From: an uncultured delta proteobacterium
Lineage (GTDB): Bacteria > Desulfobacterota > Syntrophia > Syntrophales > Smithellaceae
NCBI GenBank assembly: GCA_903907985.1
Contig: CAIVQG010000040.1
Location: forward strand, 1-57,669
Direction: 5' to 3'
Length of the DNA: 57,669 nucleotides
Shown here: positions 39,555 to 51,459 of the stretch, in pieces
Position numbering within the stretch: position 1 is the first letter of the stretch
How the letters are laid out: the number at the start of each line of letters is the position of its first letter
Notes under the pieces: model-generated
What the model was told of the DNA's origin: nothing
Databases searched by the model: none
The model's input: only the letters and a program-made list of their open reading frames with translations
Program-made: the position numbers and the translations under genes

Positions 39555-39595
39555 GCTTGCTAATATTAATATTAATCAGGAGAGTGACAATTCCA

Positions 39596-40639
39596 ATGAA
39601 AAAGAAAGACTTACTGAATAAAAAAGTTGAGCACATTGACATCAAAACCATAAATTCTGTGGACATTATTAAAGCCATGAAAAAGATGTCTTTTTCCGCC
39701 CGTGATCTGGCCAATGCTGCCGACATTTATGACTCCATGCTAAAAGAAAAAAACTGCGCCGTGATCCTGACTCTGGCCGGTTCCACATCGGCCGCCGGCT
39801 GTATGCAGGTATATGTGGATATGGTGAAGAACAACATGATCGATGTTATTGTCGCCACCGGCGCTGCGATAGTGGATATGGATTTCTTTGAAGCCTTGGG
39901 TTTTCGCCACTATCAGGGGACTCCTTTTGTTGACGACAAGTTGCTGCGCAGCCTCTATATTGACCGCATATACGATACTTACATTGATGAAGAACAGCTT
40001 CAGGCCTGCGATAAAACCATCAAGACAATTGCCGATGCATTGCCTCCCCGTGCTTACTCTTCGCGGGAATTTATCTGGGAAATGGGAAAATATTTAAAGA
40101 AGCATGCCAAGAAAAAGGATTCTCTCATCCAGGCTGCCTACGAGCATAATGTCCCCATTTTTTGCCCGGCCTTCTCCGACAGTTCGGCGGGCTTCGGTCT
40201 CGTCCTGCACCAGCATGAATTTCCGGAAAACCATGTTTCCATAGATTCTGTGAAAGATTTCCGCGAGTTGACCATGATAAAAATTGAAGCGGGGAAAACC
40301 GGCTTATTGATCATCGGTGGCGGTGTGCCGAAAAATTTTGCCCAGGACACAGTGGTTTGTGCGGAAATATTGGGACATGAAGTACCCATGCATAAATATG
40401 CCGTGCAAATAACAGTTGCCGATGTGCGCGACGGAGCCTGCTCCAGTTCTACGCTCAAAGAAGCTAATTCCTGGGGAAAAGTGGATTCGTCCTGCGAGCA
40501 GATGGTTTATGCGGAAGCTACGACCGTCCTGCCGCTCCTGGCGAGTTACGCTTACCACAAGGGCAGTTGGAAAAAGCGTAAAAAATGGGAATTGGCGAAT
40601 ATATTTGATGTTCCGGGAAAAAGCGTTACGAAGAAGTAA
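39596..40639 (+). CDS. Deoxyhypusine synthase family protein (possible homospermidine synthase)
   Basis: This 347-residue NAD-dependent enzyme matches deoxyhypusine synthase across its length: LTLAGSTSAAG, IVATGAAIVDMD, PIFCPAFSDSSAGF, LLIIGGGVPKNFAQD, and the active-site lysine K295 in EANSWGKVDSS, which forms the enzyme-imine with the butylamine unit of spermidine. In archaea and eukaryotes DHS modifies aIF5A/eIF5A, which bacteria lack. Bacterial relatives have been linked to homospermidine or other polyamine synthesis. AGGAGAG lies upstream of the ATG, and a strong terminator follows. No polyamine gene is adjacent, so the role stays open. Confidence 0.9.
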   Translation: MKKKDLLNKKVEHIDIKTINSVDIIKAMKKMSFSARDLANAADIYDSMLKEKNCAVILTLAGSTSAAGCMQVYVDMVKNNMIDVIVATGAAIVDMDFFEALGFRHYQGTPFVDDKLLRSLYIDRIYDTYIDEEQLQACDKTIKTIADALPPRAYSSREFIWEMGKYLKKHAKKKDSLIQAAYEHNVPIFCPAFSDSSAGFGLVLHQHEFPENHVSIDSVKDFRELTMIKIEAGKTGLLIIGGGVPKNFAQDTVVCAEILGHEVPMHKYAVQITVADVRDGACSSSTLKEANSWGKVDSSCEQMVYAEATTVLPLLASYAYHKGSWKKRKKWELANIFDVPGKSVTKK

Positions 40640-40723: not shown

Positions 40724-41878
40724 TTATTTGCCCATCTTCCTTAGTGCTTCGATGGCTGTAATTATCTGCTCTTCCGTATTGAAGTAACTGAAACTGAAGC
40801 GCACTGTACCCGCAGGGTAGGTGCCGATTGTTTTATGTGCGGCTGGTGCACAGTGCAACCCGGGCCGGGACATGATACCGAACCGTTCATCCAATTCCAG
40901 TGATACTGTTGCCGGATCCATGTCCCGGACGTTGAAGGAGACGACGGGTATCCGCCGGGCTGTATCCTTAATGCCGTAAATGGTGATGCCAGCAATATCT
41001 CCGATCCCCTGTAAAAAAAGTTCTGTCAGATGTTTTTCGTGAGCAGTGATGGCGTTCAATCCCCGGGACAAGATAAAGTCAATGCCGGCCGTCAATCCGG
41101 CATAACCGGCCGTATTTGGTGTCCCTGATTCAAATTTGTCCGGCAGGAAATCGGGTTGTTGCTCATACTCCGACCGGCTGCCCGTGCCGCCTCTCATCAG
41201 GGGAGAGATAACCTGTTCCAGACCCTTGCGGATATAAATCCCCCCCGTCCCCTGTGGTCCGAATAATGATTTGTGTCCTGTAAACACCAGCAGGTCAATA
41301 TCCGTTGCCCGGATATCAATCGGAAACGCCCCCGCCGTCTGGGCGGCATCGACACAAAACACAAGGCCGTGCTCCCGGGCAATTCTGCCAATATCGGCCA
41401 CAGGCATGATCGTACCCGTAACGTTGGAAGCGTGGGTCAGGAAAATGGCCTTCGTGTTCTTTTGAATTGCCGGCACAAAAGCTCCCGGATCAAGTTCGCC
41501 TTCGGCGGAACAGGGAAGAATCGTCAGCTCGATGCCTTTTTCTTCCATTGCCCGCAGGGGCCGCATGACAGAGTTGTGCTCCATGGACGAGGTAATCACA
41601 TGGTCACCGGGTTGCAAAAAACCAAAGACGACGATGTTGATAGCCTCTGTGGCATTCTTCGTCAGGATGATCCGCAACGGGTCGTCAATGGAGAAGAGTC
41701 GGGAGAGAGCATCGCGCGCGTTGAAGATGACGCGGCTTGCTTCGATAGACATGCCGTGTCCCGAACGCCCGGGGCTGCCGCCCGTTTCCCTCAGGCATGT
41801 CTCAACGGCCCGAATTGTTGCTTCCGGCTTCGGCCACGATGTGGCGGCATTGTCGAAGTAGATAATGTTCCTGTTCAT
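40724..41878 (-). CDS. NifS-like cysteine desulfurase family protein (class V aminotransferase)
   Basis: This 384-residue PLP enzyme has the PLP lysine K203 in FTGHKSLFGPQGTGG, the histidine in SSMEHNSVMRP, and a catalytic cysteine C343 in RPGLHCAPAAHKTIGT. That last motif marks a desulfurase subfamily distinct from IscS and SufS. These enzymes remove sulfur, or selenium, from cysteine or selenocysteine as a persulfide or selenide. Its place next to tRNA-Sec, a Se/S-carrier-like gene and yedF suggests selenium mobilisation. This is inference; activity on selenocysteine is not visible from the sequence. Confidence 0.9.
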   Translation of the reverse strand: MNRNIIYFDNAATSWPKPEATIRAVETCLRETGGSPGRSGHGMSIEASRVIFNARDALSRLFSIDDPLRIILTKNATEAINIVVFGFLQPGDHVITSSMEHNSVMRPLRAMEEKGIELTILPCSAEGELDPGAFVPAIQKNTKAIFLTHASNVTGTIMPVADIGRIAREHGLVFCVDAAQTAGAFPIDIRATDIDLLVFTGHKSLFGPQGTGGIYIRKGLEQVISPLMRGGTGSRSEYEQQPDFLPDKFESGTPNTAGYAGLTAGIDFILSRGLNAITAHEKHLTELFLQGIGDIAGITIYGIKDTARRIPVVSFNVRDMDPATVSLELDERFGIMSRPGLHCAPAAHKTIGTYPAGTVRFSFSYFNTEEQIITAIEALRKMGK

Positions 41879-42024
41879 ATTTTCGTTTTTCCCGGTGATG
41901 GGGTTGAATTATCCATACTGTCCTAGTTAGTGCTCCAAATTCATCCATCAAAGGATTTTTCCCGCTGTCATTCTCCATGTCTATTCTATTGACCATCAGT
42001 AGCAACATTCGTTGTTTTAGAATA

Positions 42025-42118
42025 AGGCCGGGCTTAGAATCGAACTAATCAGCAAACATTTCAGTGTTTGCCCGACGGGGTTGAAGCCCGCGGCCGGCGC
42101 CAGCCGACTCGCCCGGTC
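42025..42118 (-). tRNA. selC: Selenocysteine tRNA (anticodon UCA)
   Basis: The minus strand folds as tRNA-Sec: 8-bp acceptor (GACCGGGC with GCCCGGCC), a 6-bp D-stem GTCGGC/GCCGGC closed by a 4-base loop, 5-bp anticodon stem around CTTCAAC with anticodon TCA at 42084-42082, a long variable arm (GGCAAACA/TGTTTGCT), and a T-loop TTCGATT. The long D-stem, small D-loop and extended acceptor are hallmarks of bacterial tRNA-Sec. Odd points are an A-C mismatch at the second acceptor pair, an A-G pair at the top of the T-stem, T as discriminator, and no encoded CCA. It is flanked by selenium-related genes. Confidence 0.83.
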
Positions 42119-42143
42119 AACTTTTGATGCTTATTAACGGTCT

Positions 42144-42377
42144 TTAATTAGCCAGCTCCCTGATTTCTTCTATTTCCACTTTGTTTGCCAAAGCGGCTAC
42201 AATTTTACTTTGGATTGCCGGCTCAAAGCGCAAACAGATTCCGCAATCCGAACTTATGTGTTTGGGCACGGGAATCAGCTTATGCGGAAGTTCTTCCTGC
42301 TTGAGTATCTTTTCCGCCTTCAGAGCGTAACTCACTGATTTAAACAGCATCACAAAATATTGGGATTTTACGTTCAT
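42144..42377 (-). CDS. Putative Se/S carrier-like protein (DUF3343)
   Basis: This 77-residue protein has FKSVSYALKAEKILKQ at the N-terminal side and the paired cysteines C45/C48 in ISSDCGICLRF, as in the DUF3343 or Se/S-carrier-like family. Members are found in genomes that use selenium and are thought to hold or pass on selenium or sulfur as a perselenide/persulfide. Its ATG overlaps the stop of yedF as ATGA, so the two are coupled. tRNA-Sec follows 26 bp downstream on the same strand. The chemistry is inferred from the family. Confidence 0.85.
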   Translation of the reverse strand: MNVKSQYFVMLFKSVSYALKAEKILKQEELPHKLIPVPKHISSDCGICLRFEPAIQSKIVAALANKVEIEEIRELAN

Positions 42378-42988
42378 GGGGTGAGTAACCGCCCCGCACG
42401 GCTCATGGTTTGGGCAATGTCATACATATTCGATACAACGCCCACACCTAATTTGTCTTTTACTTCAAAATAACTCAGGCAAGTGCCGCAAATCAGCATT
42501 TCCACACCAGCAGCCGACAGCTCTTTTAAATCATCAAGAACTTCCGAATCAAACAAGGTAAGCTTCACCCCGGTATTATAAAAAAGCATGACATCGGGTT
42601 TCTCGGCCTGCGCGGCGATGGTATGAAGAAATGCTTTGATCAAAACATATCCCAGCTCATCACAGCCCCTTCCCATCTTGTCTTCGGCAATGACAATGAC
42701 AAAAGGCCCGGACTTTGCCGGCGTTGCGCTGCTCGACGGCATAAACTCTTCTTTTGAGGAAGCTGTGCCTGCCTTCCGGGTCAGATGAATTTCGTAAGTG
42801 TCATCACTTTTCTTTTCTGTTTTCACATCGCAGCCCAGCTTCGTCCCCAGGCGCTTTACGTTTTCCAGGGCGGTATCGTTATCGACAATAACCATAACCT
42901 GTTCATGAGATTCTATAGCCTTTTTAGCCAGGACAACCGGTTGCGGACAGTCTAATCCCCGAGCATTGACAATTTTAATTTCACCCAT
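42374..42988 (-). CDS. yedF: Sulfurtransferase-like selenium metabolism protein YedF
   Basis: This 204-residue protein has an N-terminal TusA/SirA domain with the CPQP motif (VNARGLDCPQPVVLAKK, C14) and a C-terminal DsrE-like domain with CGTC (C167, C170). This two-domain form is the YedF family tied to selenium metabolism by its distribution across genomes. It probably relays selenium or sulfur between the NifS-like enzyme and downstream acceptors. GGAGGTG lies 6 bases before the ATG at 42988. It is coupled by ATGA to the Se/S-carrier-like gene. Confidence 0.9.
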   Translation of the reverse strand: MGEIKIVNARGLDCPQPVVLAKKAIESHEQVMVIVDNDTALENVKRLGTKLGCDVKTEKKSDDTYEIHLTRKAGTASSKEEFMPSSSATPAKSGPFVIVIAEDKMGRGCDELGYVLIKAFLHTIAAQAEKPDVMLFYNTGVKLTLFDSEVLDDLKELSAAGVEMLICGTCLSYFEVKDKLGVGVVSNMYDIAQTMSRAGRLLTP

Positions 42989-43044
42989 CGAAACACCTCC
43001 CGGTAATAAATACACGCGGCCAATCGCGCTGATCATAAAAAAAT

Positions 43045-44211
43045 TTACTTTTGCGGTAGAATCTCCAACAGGGCTTCCACGCGCGTGCGAATCTGTCCCG
43101 TATCACTTTGCGAATAATCCGTTTCAATTTTTAAAAACGGCAGATGATGTTTGCTCGTTACATATTCCTTGACCCTGTGCGATTCAATATTATAGGAATG
43201 ACAGGCATGCAGGACCACGTCGATGACGACATCCGGTTTAAAACGCTCGATCATCTTATCGAGTTCCGTCAGACGGCGGTTGTTCGGCGTCATGCAGGAA
43301 CAGGGAAGATCCAGATACCGGCGCGCAACAGCCGCGTAAGGATCAGGCGTGTTTTCGGCAATCAGACTGGCAAACGGCTTCATACCGGTGCAAGAATCCA
43401 GAGTGACAATTACCGCTCCCGCCTCCTCAATAATTTTAAAAACTTTTGTCGCATCGCCACCCACCGGACAACCGGTTACCAGAACACGGGGAGAATCTTT
43501 CTTGCCGTGATAAATACCTTCAGCCACGCGCTTCTCCAGTTTGGCGACACAATCGTTGAGCAGAACAATCATGTCCTTCGTTGTCGCCGCCTGGGCCAGA
43601 TAAGTAAGATCATAAAGTTCCACCCAGCTCAGGGGCGTTGGTGTGAGCGCGGCAAAATCAAATACTTTATTCATCAACTTATTTTTGATGTTCGTCTCTT
43701 TGATTTCCTGTTCAACGTCGCGGTCGTCTATTTTGCGGTCAAAGGTCGTCTCCAGAAAACCTTTAAGTTTTTTGATCATGACCGTCCAGTTATCCAAGGC
43801 TTCCTTTTCATCAGGCAGTTGAGGCAGATCCATCACGTACGTTGGTTTAATGTGGGAGATCAGCTCAAACATTTTTTTCTTTCCGTCGCAGGTTGTTTCG
43901 GCAATGACCACTTCGGAAATGGAATAGAAAGGACAAGTATCTGTTTTAATAAAGCCGTAACTGGATTTAATGAGCGGACAGAGATTGGCCGGCAGTACGG
44001 TTTCCGCCACTTCTATCGTTTTATTGGCAAAGGCGCATAATACAGCCGGAACAGCACCCGCCGCCCGGATAACTTCCATCGGTGCGTAGCCGCAATAAAT
44101 ACCAACAACGTTCTTCCCTTTTTCCCGCTGGGATTGAATATAGCCTAAAGCGCGTTTAGCCGGTTCCCCGGCGAATCCATCATTAACTAATGGTTCAACT
44201 CCCGTTTCCAT
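43045..44211 (-). CDS. Double-cubane-cluster protein (2-hydroxyacyl-CoA dehydratase D-component family)
   Basis: This 388-residue protein resembles HgdB/BcrC-type components and most closely the double-cubane-cluster (YjiM-like) group. Cluster cysteines are visible at C40 (GIYCGYAP), C78 (PANLCPLIKSSYG), C93 (TDTCPFY) and C108 (ETTCDGKKKM), with more in the second half (SCTGMKP, LPCSCMTPN). Such proteins do low-potential two-electron reductions after electron transfer from an ATP-using activator. No activator gene (HgdC-like) is in view. AAGGAG precedes the ATG. It sits in the selenium gene cluster between yedF and a LysR gene. The substrate is unknown. Confidence 0.88.
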   Translation of the reverse strand: METGVEPLVNDGFAGEPAKRALGYIQSQREKGKNVVGIYCGYAPMEVIRAAGAVPAVLCAFANKTIEVAETVLPANLCPLIKSSYGFIKTDTCPFYSISEVVIAETTCDGKKKMFELISHIKPTYVMDLPQLPDEKEALDNWTVMIKKLKGFLETTFDRKIDDRDVEQEIKETNIKNKLMNKVFDFAALTPTPLSWVELYDLTYLAQAATTKDMIVLLNDCVAKLEKRVAEGIYHGKKDSPRVLVTGCPVGGDATKVFKIIEEAGAVIVTLDSCTGMKPFASLIAENTPDPYAAVARRYLDLPCSCMTPNNRRLTELDKMIERFKPDVVIDVVLHACHSYNIESHRVKEYVTSKHHLPFLKIETDYSQSDTGQIRTRVEALLEILPQK

Positions 44212-44252
44212 ATTGAGAACTCCTTCTGTGTAAGTTTATTGCAGTCAGTAGC

Positions 44253-44280
44253 CCTATATGATATCAGGGAATATATCCAA
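44253..44280 (-). promoter_or_regulatory. Possible promoter of the double-cubane/yedF operon
   Basis: On the minus strand TTGGAT (44280-44275), a 16-base spacer and TATAGG (44258-44253) lie between the palindrome at 44284-44320 and the ATG at 44211. Both boxes are imperfect, as expected for a promoter needing an activator. Confidence 0.4.
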
Positions 44281-44283
44281 TAG

Positions 44284-44320
44284 ATAATAGTTATAACCAT
44301 ATGGATATTATTACTATTAT
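44284..44320. promoter_or_regulatory. Large inverted repeat, likely LysR operator
   Basis: ATAATAGTTATAA (44284-44296) and TTATTACTATTAT (44308-44320) are inverted repeats with one mismatch in 13 and an 11-base spacer. The centre is about 55 bases before the predicted start of the double-cubane operon, the usual place for a LysR-type activator site. A LysR gene lies directly upstream. Confidence 0.55.
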
Positions 44321-44384
44321 TTATTCACAAAAGAATTATATCTAATGACATACAGTTGGGATTCAGAAGAAGAACTATTGAGGC

Positions 44385-45314
44385 TTAAAGCCCGCCGGGG
44401 ATGTAATACGTCAGAAAATTCATGAACGTTTTATGAAAAGGCAGGAAATCAAATTGGCGTTTATAAATTAAATAAAAGTTTCTTTCCATCGTAAGTCCCG
44501 AAATTGGAATTTCAAAAAGTAATCCCTGGGATAATTCCCGCTCCACGGCATGAATGGAAATCACAGAAACTCCCAGTCCGGCAATTACCGCTTCCTTAAT
44601 GGCCTCAGAGCTTCCTAACTCGCTGCAAATATTAAACTGCGAAAGACTTATTGATTTTGCTTCCTTCAAACATGATTCCAGTAATTCCCGCGTTGCTGAA
44701 CCTTTTTCTCTTATGACAAACTGTTCGTTCAATAATTCCGGCAACGTAATTGATTTCTTTTTGTACCAGGGGTGCAGTTTCGGAACAGCCAAGATAAGAC
44801 GATCCTTCCACATAGGTTCGGCCATCAGTTTTTTATTCAGAGGCTTCATACCGATAACGCCAATTTCCACCTCGTTATCCAAAACCATGTTCATGGCTTC
44901 ATTGCTGTCTGCCGTTTTGATATGTATCCGTATATCGGAATGTTTCTTTTTAAATTCACTCAGGGCGCGGGGCAGAATGTAGGTAGCGGGAATAGTACTG
45001 GCGCCGATGTAGATATTGCCGCCGGTATTTTCGTGAAGCTTAATAATTTTTGTTTTTGCTTCATCCCGCAGTTGAATCATCCGCAACGCGTAATCATAGA
45101 GAATTTTTCCTTCCGGCGTCAGTGAAATACCGGCATTATTGCGATTGACCACACTGACACCCAGAGAATCTTCCACATTCTTGATGTTTTTGGTTATTGC
45201 CGGTTGAGTCAGTGTCATCTTCCTGGCGGCAAGGCTGAAGCTTCCTTCTTCCACAAGTGAAATAAGAACTTCCATCTGTTGGAGAGTGATATTTATGAAG
45301 TGATCAGTAGTCAT
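44385..45314 (-). CDS. LysR-family transcriptional regulator
   Basis: This 309-residue regulator has an N-terminal winged helix-turn-helix (LQQMEVLISLVEEGSFSLAARKMTLTQPAITKNIKNVEDSLG, about 12-53, with the helix pair at AARKM and TQPAITKNI) and a C-terminal two-lobed ligand-binding domain of the CysB/CbbR type (NIYIGASTIPATYILP, VIREKGSATRELLE). LysR proteins activate a nearby operon on binding a small molecule. Here the operon is the double-cubane/yedF/Se-carrier set, which lies 173 bp downstream on the same strand; LysR regulators of this kind are known from selenium-associated loci. The inducer is unknown. Confidence 0.92.
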   Translation of the reverse strand: MTTDHFINITLQQMEVLISLVEEGSFSLAARKMTLTQPAITKNIKNVEDSLGVSVVNRNNAGISLTPEGKILYDYALRMIQLRDEAKTKIIKLHENTGGNIYIGASTIPATYILPRALSEFKKKHSDIRIHIKTADSNEAMNMVLDNEVEIGVIGMKPLNKKLMAEPMWKDRLILAVPKLHPWYKKKSITLPELLNEQFVIREKGSATRELLESCLKEAKSISLSQFNICSELGSSEAIKEAVIAGLGVSVISIHAVERELSQGLLFEIPISGLTMERNFYLIYKRQFDFLPFHKTFMNFLTYYIPGGL

Positions 45315-49011: not shown

Positions 49012-49917
49012 TTATTGGAGATTATTTACATCATCCATTAATCCCAGGGCTTTATAGGAAAGGGCAAGATGCCTCAGATAAAACGGATTATCCGGCTCTA
49101 TTTTCAATGCTCTGCGGAAGGCCTCCACTGCCTCGGAATGGTAATTTGCCCGGGCCAGCATATTGCCGAAACGGTTGAAGTAGGCACCGGCGCTGGAGTT
49201 GTCGTAATGTGCGGCATATTCGTATTGAGCATGTGCTTCTGAAACCCGTCCCAAACCAACTAAAACATCACCTAAACAACAACGATACAGGGGTTTAGTC
49301 GGATTGGCCGCAATACAAGCTGTAAGCAACCTTTTTGCTTCTTCGTAACTCCCGCTATTAGCGAACAAATCAGACATTTTAAAATAATAATGGTCAACTT
49401 GCTCCGGATCAATTTCTGCGGCCCGCAAATAAGCAGCTTCGCTATCGGAGGACAGACCTGCGGCAAACAGAGCATCTCCCCAAAGGCAGTGAAAAACAGG
49501 ATTATCGTTTTCCAGCCCAACTAATTTTTCAAAAATGTCACAGGCTTCCGGGGCGCGACCAGCCAGAAGATAGGCATTACCCAGTTCATGGAGCAGGCCG
49601 GTATCGGCGGGTTGAGCATCCACGGCACTTGTACATATTTCCACAAGTTTGTTGAAATTTTTCTCCTGCTTATAAATGCGCACCAGTTCATCAAAAGCAA
49701 ATCCGGTAAATATTTTTCTTTGCAGTTCCCGTTTCAGCAGGATTTCCAGGTAGGCAATAGCTTTTGCCGTAGTCCCGCTGTCGTGATAAGCCCAGGCCAG
49801 CATCAACAATACGGATTCTTCTTCGGGATAAGCCTGATAAATTTCTTCTAAGAGCACTATGGCTTCCGAATATTTTCCCTGCTTTAGAAGCTGATCTGCA
49901 GTATCCAGTTTTTCCAT
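49012..49917 (-). CDS. Tetratricopeptide repeat protein
   Basis: This 301-residue protein is built from about eight TPR units, each with the W/L-G-Y-A-P pattern (for example LLKQGKYSEAIVLLEEIYQAYP, LGNAYLLAGRAPEACDIFEKL, FGNMLARANYHSEAVEAFRRALKIEPDN; the listed segments lie near 10-31, 111-131 and 258-285). TPRs bind protein partners. There is no signal peptide, so it should be cytoplasmic. AAGGGA precedes the ATG at 49917. It is convergent with the pil operon and 109 bp after the selenoprotein gene on the same strand, but a terminator separates them. The partner is unknown. Confidence 0.88.
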   Translation of the reverse strand: MEKLDTADQLLKQGKYSEAIVLLEEIYQAYPEEESVLLMLAWAYHDSGTTAKAIAYLEILLKRELQRKIFTGFAFDELVRIYKQEKNFNKLVEICTSAVDAQPADTGLLHELGNAYLLAGRAPEACDIFEKLVGLENDNPVFHCLWGDALFAAGLSSDSEAAYLRAAEIDPEQVDHYYFKMSDLFANSGSYEEAKRLLTACIAANPTKPLYRCCLGDVLVGLGRVSEAHAQYEYAAHYDNSSAGAYFNRFGNMLARANYHSEAVEAFRRALKIEPDNPFYLRHLALSYKALGLMDDVNNLQ

Positions 49918-49988
49918 TATTTCCCTTGAGACCAATTTATATGGAGGTTTGAACTTTGGATGCGAAACGGTGGATGAAAACAGCTGGT

Positions 49989-50019
49989 TAAAAAATAAGG
50001 GGGAGAAAAAATCTCCCCC
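49989..50019 (-). terminator. Intrinsic terminator of the HesB-like selenoprotein gene
   Basis: Arms GGGGGAG (49999-50005) and CTCCCCC (50013-50019) lie just past the stop at 50026. On the minus strand the stem is followed by TTATTTTTTAA, a clear U-tract. Confidence 0.88.
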
Positions 50020-50025
50020 GAAATT

Positions 50026-50343
50026 TCAGCAACCTGAGCACGAGGATACACAACCGCCTTCCGGTGCAGCAAGTCCGGAAGTCAATTTAAATCCCGCACC
50101 ACGGGCTGTTTCAATGAAATCAACGTTAATCGGTTTCGCCTGATTAAGGAGGTCTTTATCAATAATAAATTTCGTTCCTTTCTCATCAAACACTTCATCT
50201 TCATTTTTAGGCTCGTCCAGAGCCATGCCCAAAGAGGGCCCGGATCAACCAATCGACATTGTAATCCGGATCGCGGAATTTTCATTCTTATCTTTGAGAA
50301 AATCCTTGATTACTTCGGAGGCCTTATCTGTAACTGTAAACAT
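50026..50343 (-). CDS. HesB/IscA-like selenoprotein (Sec33 at an in-frame TGA)
   Basis: Reading from the ATG at 50343, one in-frame TGA (50247-50245) lies at codon 33 in the context RITMSIG-U-SGPSLGMAL; the frame then continues to TGA at 50028-50026, for 105 residues. The sequence is a HesB/IscA-family domain with a C-terminal cysteine group GGCVSSCSGC. Sec-containing HesB-like proteins with U at this place are a described selenoprotein family. A standard gene caller would give only a 68-residue fragment from 50232. IscA-type proteins bind Fe-S clusters; the function with Sec is unknown. A candidate SECIS (50210-50224), promoter and terminator support a real gene. AAAGGGG precedes the ATG. 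Confidence 0.9.
50210..50224 (-). promoter_or_regulatory. Candidate bacterial SECIS element (HesB-like gene)
   Basis: On the minus strand GGCTC-TGGAC-GAGCC forms a perfect 5-bp stem with a 5-base loop containing GG. The loop begins 25 bases after the TGA, within the range known for bacterial SECIS apical loops. It lies in the coding sequence, as bacterial SECIS elements do. Confidence 0.6.
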
Positions 50344-50391
50344 TAAATTATCCCCTTTCTGCGATGGACTTTTGCCATCTATATTGGAGAT

Positions 50392-51030: not shown

Positions 51031-51459
51031 TCATTCAACAATGACCATTATTTCAAATGCTTTAACAGGAGCGATATTTTTTTCAAATGTCCTGTGGTAA
51101 ATAAGACGCAGCCTTGTTTTACCTGTGGCGGTTCCCAGGAAGGTAAAGGCAAATTTGCCACCGGAACCAACCAGTAATGGCTCGGCCGGTGTATATTTAT
51201 AGTCGCCCTGCGGGGACAATATGGCATTATCACCTTCCACCTTTTCCCAGATATAGCCGGTAGTCGGATTGCCCTCCAGGGCAATCTCCAGTCGGTCGCC
51301 GGCATTCATCTTTATGTTACGCTGATGAGCTGATTGAGTTAAACGAATTTTCCCCGCATACGCAGGAAAGATTAAAGCCCCGCACACTGTTATGGCAATT
51401 ACGCCTGATAACAAAGTCTTATTTTTCATAATTCTACAAATATAATTAATTATTTTCAT
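51031..51459 (-). CDS. Exported chagasin-type (I42) cysteine protease inhibitor
   Basis: This 142-residue precursor has a signal peptide with a long basic start (hydrophobic part about 15-34, end FPAYAG). The mature part carries the chagasin loops: GNPTTGYIWE (NPTTGY motif), VGSGGKFAFTF, and RLIYHRTFEK. Chagasin-family proteins bind papain-type cysteine proteases with these three loops. AAGGA precedes the ATG at 51459. It is a single gene, convergent with uspA; the target protease is not in view. It may protect against host or competitor enzymes, but that is inference. Confidence 0.88.
   Translation of the reverse strand: MKIINYICRIMKNKTLLSGVIAITVCGALIFPAYAGKIRLTQSAHQRNIKMNAGDRLEIALEGNPTTGYIWEKVEGDNAILSPQGDYKYTPAEPLLVGSGGKFAFTFLGTATGKTRLRLIYHRTFEKNIAPVKAFEIMVIVE

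Follow-up and report, generated by a model that had tools for sequence, protein, structure and literature searches.

A HesB/IscA-like gene with an in-frame UGA from an uncultured deltaproteobacterium: a probable selenoprotein of a known family

A minus-strand gene in the 57,669-nucleotide stretch of DNA analyzed here (the window) very probably encodes a genuine HesB/IscA-like selenoprotein, with selenocysteine (Sec) at an in-frame UGA. We put the probability of this reading at roughly 95%, with actual Sec insertion inferred from sequence. The assessment draws on computed evidence, comprising the gene itself, its family membership, the Sec/Cys site, the conservation of a hairpin beyond the UGA, the Sec gene set of the genome, and the predicted fold. 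The gene is an ordinary member of an already described family (NF038090, the HesB-like selenoproteins), which has been known for about 20 years and was listed by 2005–2006. As this family, Syntrophus included, is already in the literature, the gene is a further member in a lineage already listed. Ordinary gene finders would split or drop such a gene, which matters for annotation.

Gene layout and family membership

The coordinates originally predicted for the gene, 50026-50343, were correct and hold 105 codons with a single internal TGA at codon 33 (50247-50245). The strand had been left out of that prediction; the gene lies on the minus strand and reads from 50343 to 50026. A start and ribosome site before the gene and a terminator after it had also been predicted, and both were located (Table 1).

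Table 1. Positions of the selenoprotein gene, its signals, and selenium-related genes in the window
Feature	Position	Strand	Basis
HesB/IscA-like selenoprotein CDS, 105 residues, U33	50029..50343	-	reading frame; NF038090 and PF01521 scores
In-frame TGA, codon 33, selenocysteine (predicted)	50245..50247	-	TGA or Cys in relatives; aligns with the Cys of the IscA GCSG motif
Final stop TGA	50026..50028	-	stop codons of relatives
SECIS-like hairpin GGCTC-TGGAC-GAGCC, 20 nt past TGA	50210..50224	-	conserved pairs and loop; codon constraint
Ribosome binding site AGGGG and spacer, before ATG	50344..50356	-	read from sequence
Intrinsic terminator, 8-pair stem GGGGGAGA/TCTCCCCC, T-rich tail	49999..50019	-	3' of the selenoprotein gene
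tRNA-Sec, UCA anticodon	42025..42114 (42026..42118 in a second scan)	-	in window
Cysteine desulfurase family protein TIGR01977	40724..41878	-	below cut-off of the selenocysteine lyase SclA model
YedF, sulfurtransferase-like selenium metabolism protein	42374..43036	-	family model match
Selenium metabolism-associated LysR regulator NF040786	44385..45314	-	family model match

The protein scored 115.8 bits against NF038090 (IscA_HesB_Se; cut-off 85) when U33 was entered as the letter for Cys, with residues 1-99 aligned to model positions 1-100 of 101 and both halves of the frame covered. It also matched PF01521 (Fe-S_biosyn) at 36.6 bits, against a gathering cut-off of 26.3, and the HesB/IscA-type domain originally recognized in the sequence is confirmed by these two models. 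Two further models fell short of their cut-offs. For TIGR01911 (HesB_rel_seleno), the score was 55.7 bits against 66.35, and we therefore do not file the protein under that model; for TIGR00049 (iron-sulfur cluster assembly accessory protein), it was 55.9 bits against 58.8.

The search for a conserved gene partner returned only a TPR-repeat gene (49012-49935, minus strand), which recurred downstream on the strand of the selenoprotein gene in 19 of the 23 flanks searched. A partner was rejected, and because the terminator separates the two genes in the window, we claim no functional link. Elsewhere in the window, a chagasin-family (I42) peptidase inhibitor gene (51031-51459, minus strand) adjoins Hsp20 and Lon genes, and a homologue of deoxyhypusine synthase of the 1,9-bis(guanidino)-5-aza-nonane synthase type (39557-40639, plus strand) scored above its curated cut-off.

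Codon 33 in relatives

Relatives were collected from 85 loci (L003-L087), 25 from one genome set, 30 from phylum genomes, and 30 from order genomes. They were gathered with the family model and the window protein, and the search pattern fixes the residues next to the site; copies that have diverged strongly may therefore have escaped detection. Across the resulting 77 distinct copies, with identical genes merged, the window gene counted among them, and the residue itself left free, codon 33 was TGA in 68 and Cys in nine. No copy had a sense codon other than Cys (0 of 77). Four more copies that the pattern missed were read by eye, and these had TGA (L030 and L085) or Cys (L080 and L057), again in keeping with the selenocysteine originally proposed at this codon. 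Weak TGA-free relatives also occur in some kin, outside the 77.

Eleven of the 85 loci have no row of their own in the codon count. L069, L070, L072, L075, and L078 were treated as duplicates of other rows: the readings of L069, L072, and L075 agree with those of L039, L033, and L041, respectively, L078 is the window gene, and the identity of L070 was deduced from the merging. L055 and L056 are fragments lacking the codon-33 site, and the truncated copy L050 was excluded from the alignment and tree. At the genome level, NF038090 matched in 127 of 155 genomes of the order and in 220 of 395 genomes of the phylum sample. A hand count of the matches listed for the order gave 140 copies over the cut-off, 125 with one in-frame TGA and 15 with none, in a listing that gives no stop position.

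With the NF038090 score running across both halves and the TGA site kept in 68 of 77 copies, the frame and its TGA are beyond chance. The true stop of the 67 complete TGA-type relatives was TGA in 36, TAA in 20, and TAG in 11. A second Sec at the C-terminal TGA was rejected on this count; a terminator follows that codon in the window.

A conserved hairpin follows the UGA

Bacterial selenoprotein genes carry a SECIS stem-loop shortly after the UGA, with a G in the first loop positions. The GGCTC-TGGAC-GAGCC hairpin originally noticed 20 bases past the UGA was found again at 50224-50210, and all 68 TGA copies keep its five pairs at this distance together with a loop that starts with UG. Among the nine Cys copies, five pairs can form in two, four in three, three in three, and two in one. 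Stem variation in the TGA copies is confined to one pair that is G-C in 51, G-U in 14, and U-G in three, and another that is C-G in 67 and U-G in one; the remaining three are invariant.

Codon choice in the stem and loop was compared with that elsewhere in the same genes. GAG is used in 68/68 copies (158/493 Glu codons elsewhere), CTG in 68/68 (122/368 Leu codons elsewhere), and GCT in all 64 copies with Ala at that position (57/353 elsewhere). The fixation persists in 21 representatives below 70% identity (GAG 21/21, CTG 21/21, GCT 20/20). Stem and loop codons are fixed beyond the need of the protein. Conservation of a G in the apical loop of bacterial SECIS elements is named in PMC1794560.

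Folding of 60 nt was not clearly more stable than that of shuffled sequences (z = -1.08; 34 of 200 as stable), and in the window copy the lowest-energy 60-nt structure differed from the named hairpin. Scored as present when at least four of its five pairs formed in the minimum fold, the hairpin appeared in 48, 64, 62, and 67 of the 68 TGA copies when folding started at the TGA itself, +12, +15, and +20, respectively, and in one, two, two, and two of the nine Cys copies. For the window copy, the minimum fold of 50 nt starting at the TGA contained the hairpin, and folding from +15 gave another structure. Support for the hairpin comes from conservation and not from energy. Scanning the gene with Rfam for named RNA families, SECIS included, returned no match at the gathering score; the best weak match, to DapZ (23.7 bits; cut-off 56), spans the gene end and terminator at 49991-50051.

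Selenium genes in the window and genome

SelA, SelB, and SelD of the source genome all scored above their model cut-offs, and the SelD gene, on contig C66, carries an in-frame TGA of its own. Together with tRNA-Sec, the genome thus holds a full Sec gene set. The window had been predicted to contain tRNA-Sec and selenium genes, and we found there the tRNA, YedF, and the selenium-associated LysR regulator. These lie in a selenium cluster at 40724-45314, entirely on the minus strand, which also includes the cysteine desulfurase family protein and a double-cubane-cluster reductase.

Sec and Cys copies in the tree, and twin genes

A tree built from 84 copies placed the window gene in a set of 23 rows (support 100/99); the named members of this set are Smithella, Smithellaceae, Syntrophaceae, and unclassified Deltaproteobacteria. 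Cys copies occur at scattered points among those with Sec, in keeping with repeated changes between Sec and Cys. The tree is rooted at its midpoint only and many forks are unresolved, so the direction of change rests on remnant hairpins. L115 (the gene of L058) has a Cys codon, yet keeps the five pairs and UG loop, and L114, also with a Cys codon, keeps the stem pairs and has lost the G at the second loop position; both look as if changed from Sec to Cys. A remnant hairpin of like kind is described for the HesB-like gene of Desulfitobacterium hafniense (PMC1794560).

Tandem twins, with a Sec copy beside a Cys copy, were seen in eight of 11 candidate pairs fetched (L102-L112), namely L103 and L105-L111 from phylum families f20 and f45. 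The other three loci, L102, L104, and L112, gave no pattern match. All five hairpin pairs are present in the Sec twin in 8/8 pairs and in the Cys twin in 0/8. The Sec gene comes first in the f20 loci and in L103, and the Cys gene comes first in L107-L109. As f20 and f45 lie in different parts of the tree, the twin arrangement probably arose at least twice.

Predicted fold and cysteine tail

An AlphaFold2 model built from 22 sequences had a pLDDT of 84.7 and a pTM of 0.70, with pLDDT below 50 in the tail at residues 99-105. The best solved folds found by Foldseek were those of Escherichia coli IscA (1r94_A, E = 3.6e-7; 1s98_A, TM score 0.74 of the query), followed by IscA with a [2Fe-2S] cluster (1x0g) and SufA (2d2a). 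The window protein is thus predicted to fold like IscA/SufA. In a profile alignment to 1s98 and 1r94, U33 fell on the GCSG-motif Cys of E. coli IscA, which is Cys35 of that protein.

A-type carriers have three conserved Cys residues, including a C-terminal C-x-C. In the window protein, the first of these is Sec, and the tail reads C98-x3-C102-x2-C105, with Cys98, Cys102, and Cys105 invariant in the 22 aligned sequences. As the tail is the unreliable part of the model, any cluster geometry would be tentative.

A-type carriers in the source genome and its order

No gene besides the window gene matched TIGR00049 or NF038090 in the source genome, both searched at E up to 10, and TIGR01911 at E up to 1 returned the window gene and one match of 12.6 bits. 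By these three family models, a further convincing A-type carrier appears to be lacking in the source genome, although distant ones may have escaped the searches. A genome search with PF01521 gave no match and missed the window gene itself, and so is not counted as evidence of absence. Scaffold-type proteins are represented in the genome by one SufB/D-core match and one NifU_N match.

Across the order, where some genomes are incomplete, a hand count gave exactly one NF038090 match in 93 of the 127 matching genomes and more in 34. Within these 93, the match is listed with TGA in 86 and without it in four, and three are not among the matches listed. TIGR00049 matched in 125 of 155 genomes, only six of them above the cut-off; its 103 single-match genomes (hand count) had TGA in 96 and none in five, with two not among the matches listed. 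More genomes have several copies by NF038090 than by TIGR00049.

Among three other genomes of the same genus, G420 gave a single match. G418 gave three, two of them being additional TGA-bearing pieces (59.5 and 29.4 bits) that share one contig, and G419 adds to its first match a weak TGA-bearing one (26.4 bits) and one of 8.6 bits. A second relative, free of TGA and scoring 56 to 58 bits, occurs in several kin in the order, G445, G453, G456, and G429 among them. A sole carrier is therefore frequent in the order but does not hold for every genome. In four same-family genomes (L129, L130, L131, and L132), a TGA-free relative of 111-133 amino acids scores about 57 bits to NF038090, with the usual TGA copy elsewhere; such relatives may form a distinct subfamily.

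Discussion

Homology and conservation suggest that SelB, with Sec-tRNA, would read the in-frame UGA owing to the hairpin 20 nt downstream. The resulting Sec33 would replace the Cys that comes first among those conserved in A-type Fe-S carriers, and Cys98, Cys102, and Cys105 in the flexible tail are predicted to give the remaining ligands. The product would then bind iron or an Fe-S cluster and hand it on. No other A-type carrier was detected in this cell, which is probably anaerobic by kinship. Compared with Cys, Sec would be a softer ligand and easier to release, which may be its advantage here. As to function, we put carriage of iron or an Fe-S cluster first and lean towards it by a modest degree.

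We rank second, as a credible though less probable account, that this is a selenoprotein of IscA fold and not a cluster carrier, with Sec33 and the C-terminal Cys residues forming a selenenylsulfide redox centre or a centre handling sulfur, selenium, or metal. The tail is unlike the IscA C-x-C, with three Cys residues after residue 85 in 58 of the 67 complete TGA copies and four in the other nine. A 2026 review (PMC13188914) lists the HesB-like family by its motif UxGP and considers uncharacterized selenoproteins mostly likely to be redox in function. According to PMC11097638, mutagenesis together with 75Se labelling identified a HesB-like protein of Methanococcus maripaludis as a selenoprotein; the paper calls its function not clear and cites an unpublished observation that nitrogen fixation is unimpaired in a disruption mutant. 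These points favor a redox or handling centre, but the fold and the position of Sec match A-type carriers, and the genome has scaffold-type proteins with no other detected A-type carrier; carriage of iron or an Fe-S cluster stays our preferred function.

Turning to the UGA itself, ordinary readthrough or decoding as another residue, such as Trp, is highly improbable. We found no supporting point for it, only Cys replaces TGA among the copies seen, the genome has its own SelA, SelB, SelD, and tRNA-Sec, and the hairpin is complete in all TGA copies and in few Cys copies. Least probable of all, to the point of being negligible, is that the TGA is a real stop in a dead or misread gene: a single wrong base is possible in a draft genome of 83 contigs, but we reject both pseudogene and sequencing error because TGA is common to 68 of 77 relatives, including copies from other assemblies, with the hairpin in all 68, constrained codons, and Cys as the sole alternative seen.

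In the order of the source genome, Fe-S delivery may rest on a selenoprotein, if the role proposed here is correct. It is a speculative and rather doubtful extension that in many members of the order the single A-type carrier is a selenoprotein and Fe-S delivery is selenium-dependent, with buffering by an adjoining Cys twin in some other families of the phylum; if true, the supply of selenium would limit Fe-S enzyme maturation. A survey from 2009 (PMC2682760) reported A-type carriers as absent from many Deltaproteobacteria, and some of the gaps that it reports may correspond to UGA-interrupted genes. The role of Sec in an IscA-type fold should be easier to test where the selenoprotein seems to be the only copy. 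Our literature search found no title or abstract opening that joins an A-type carrier with a selenoprotein, but a published account of the sole-carrier point may still exist.

The family has a published record. HesB appears among known selenoproteins in 2005 (PMC1242214), and 11 HesB-like selenoproteins, including those of Syntrophus aciditrophicus, Syntrophobacter fumaroxidans, and Desulfovibrio, are given in 2006 (PMC1794560). HesB-like selenoproteins are also found in PMC1914089, including DVU_1382 of Desulfovibrio vulgaris, and PMC5029168 counts 90 members.

Compared with these known systems, the window protein differs little from the NF038090 family, of which it is a near whole-length match and whose members share the Sec site and Cys-rich tail. 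Its residue 99 (50047-50049, minus strand), which follows the first Cys of the tail, is Val; Gly occupies this position in at least 90% of the 76 copies aligned. By their descriptions, the proteins of S. aciditrophicus, S. fumaroxidans, and D. vulgaris belong to the same named family, come from anaerobic Deltaproteobacteria, and have UGA in a HesB-type protein. M. maripaludis MMJJ_08070, likewise compared by description, is a HesB-type selenoprotein like that of the window, but archaeal; archaeal SECIS elements lie outside the coding region. The A-type carriers of E. coli are ErpA, IscA, and SufA (PMC2682760). Its IscA (1s98, 1r94, 1x0g) and SufA (2d2a) share with the window protein the fold and the site of the first conserved Cys, and differ from it in combining Cys with a C-x-C tail, whereas the window protein combines Sec with a C-x3-C-x2-C tail.
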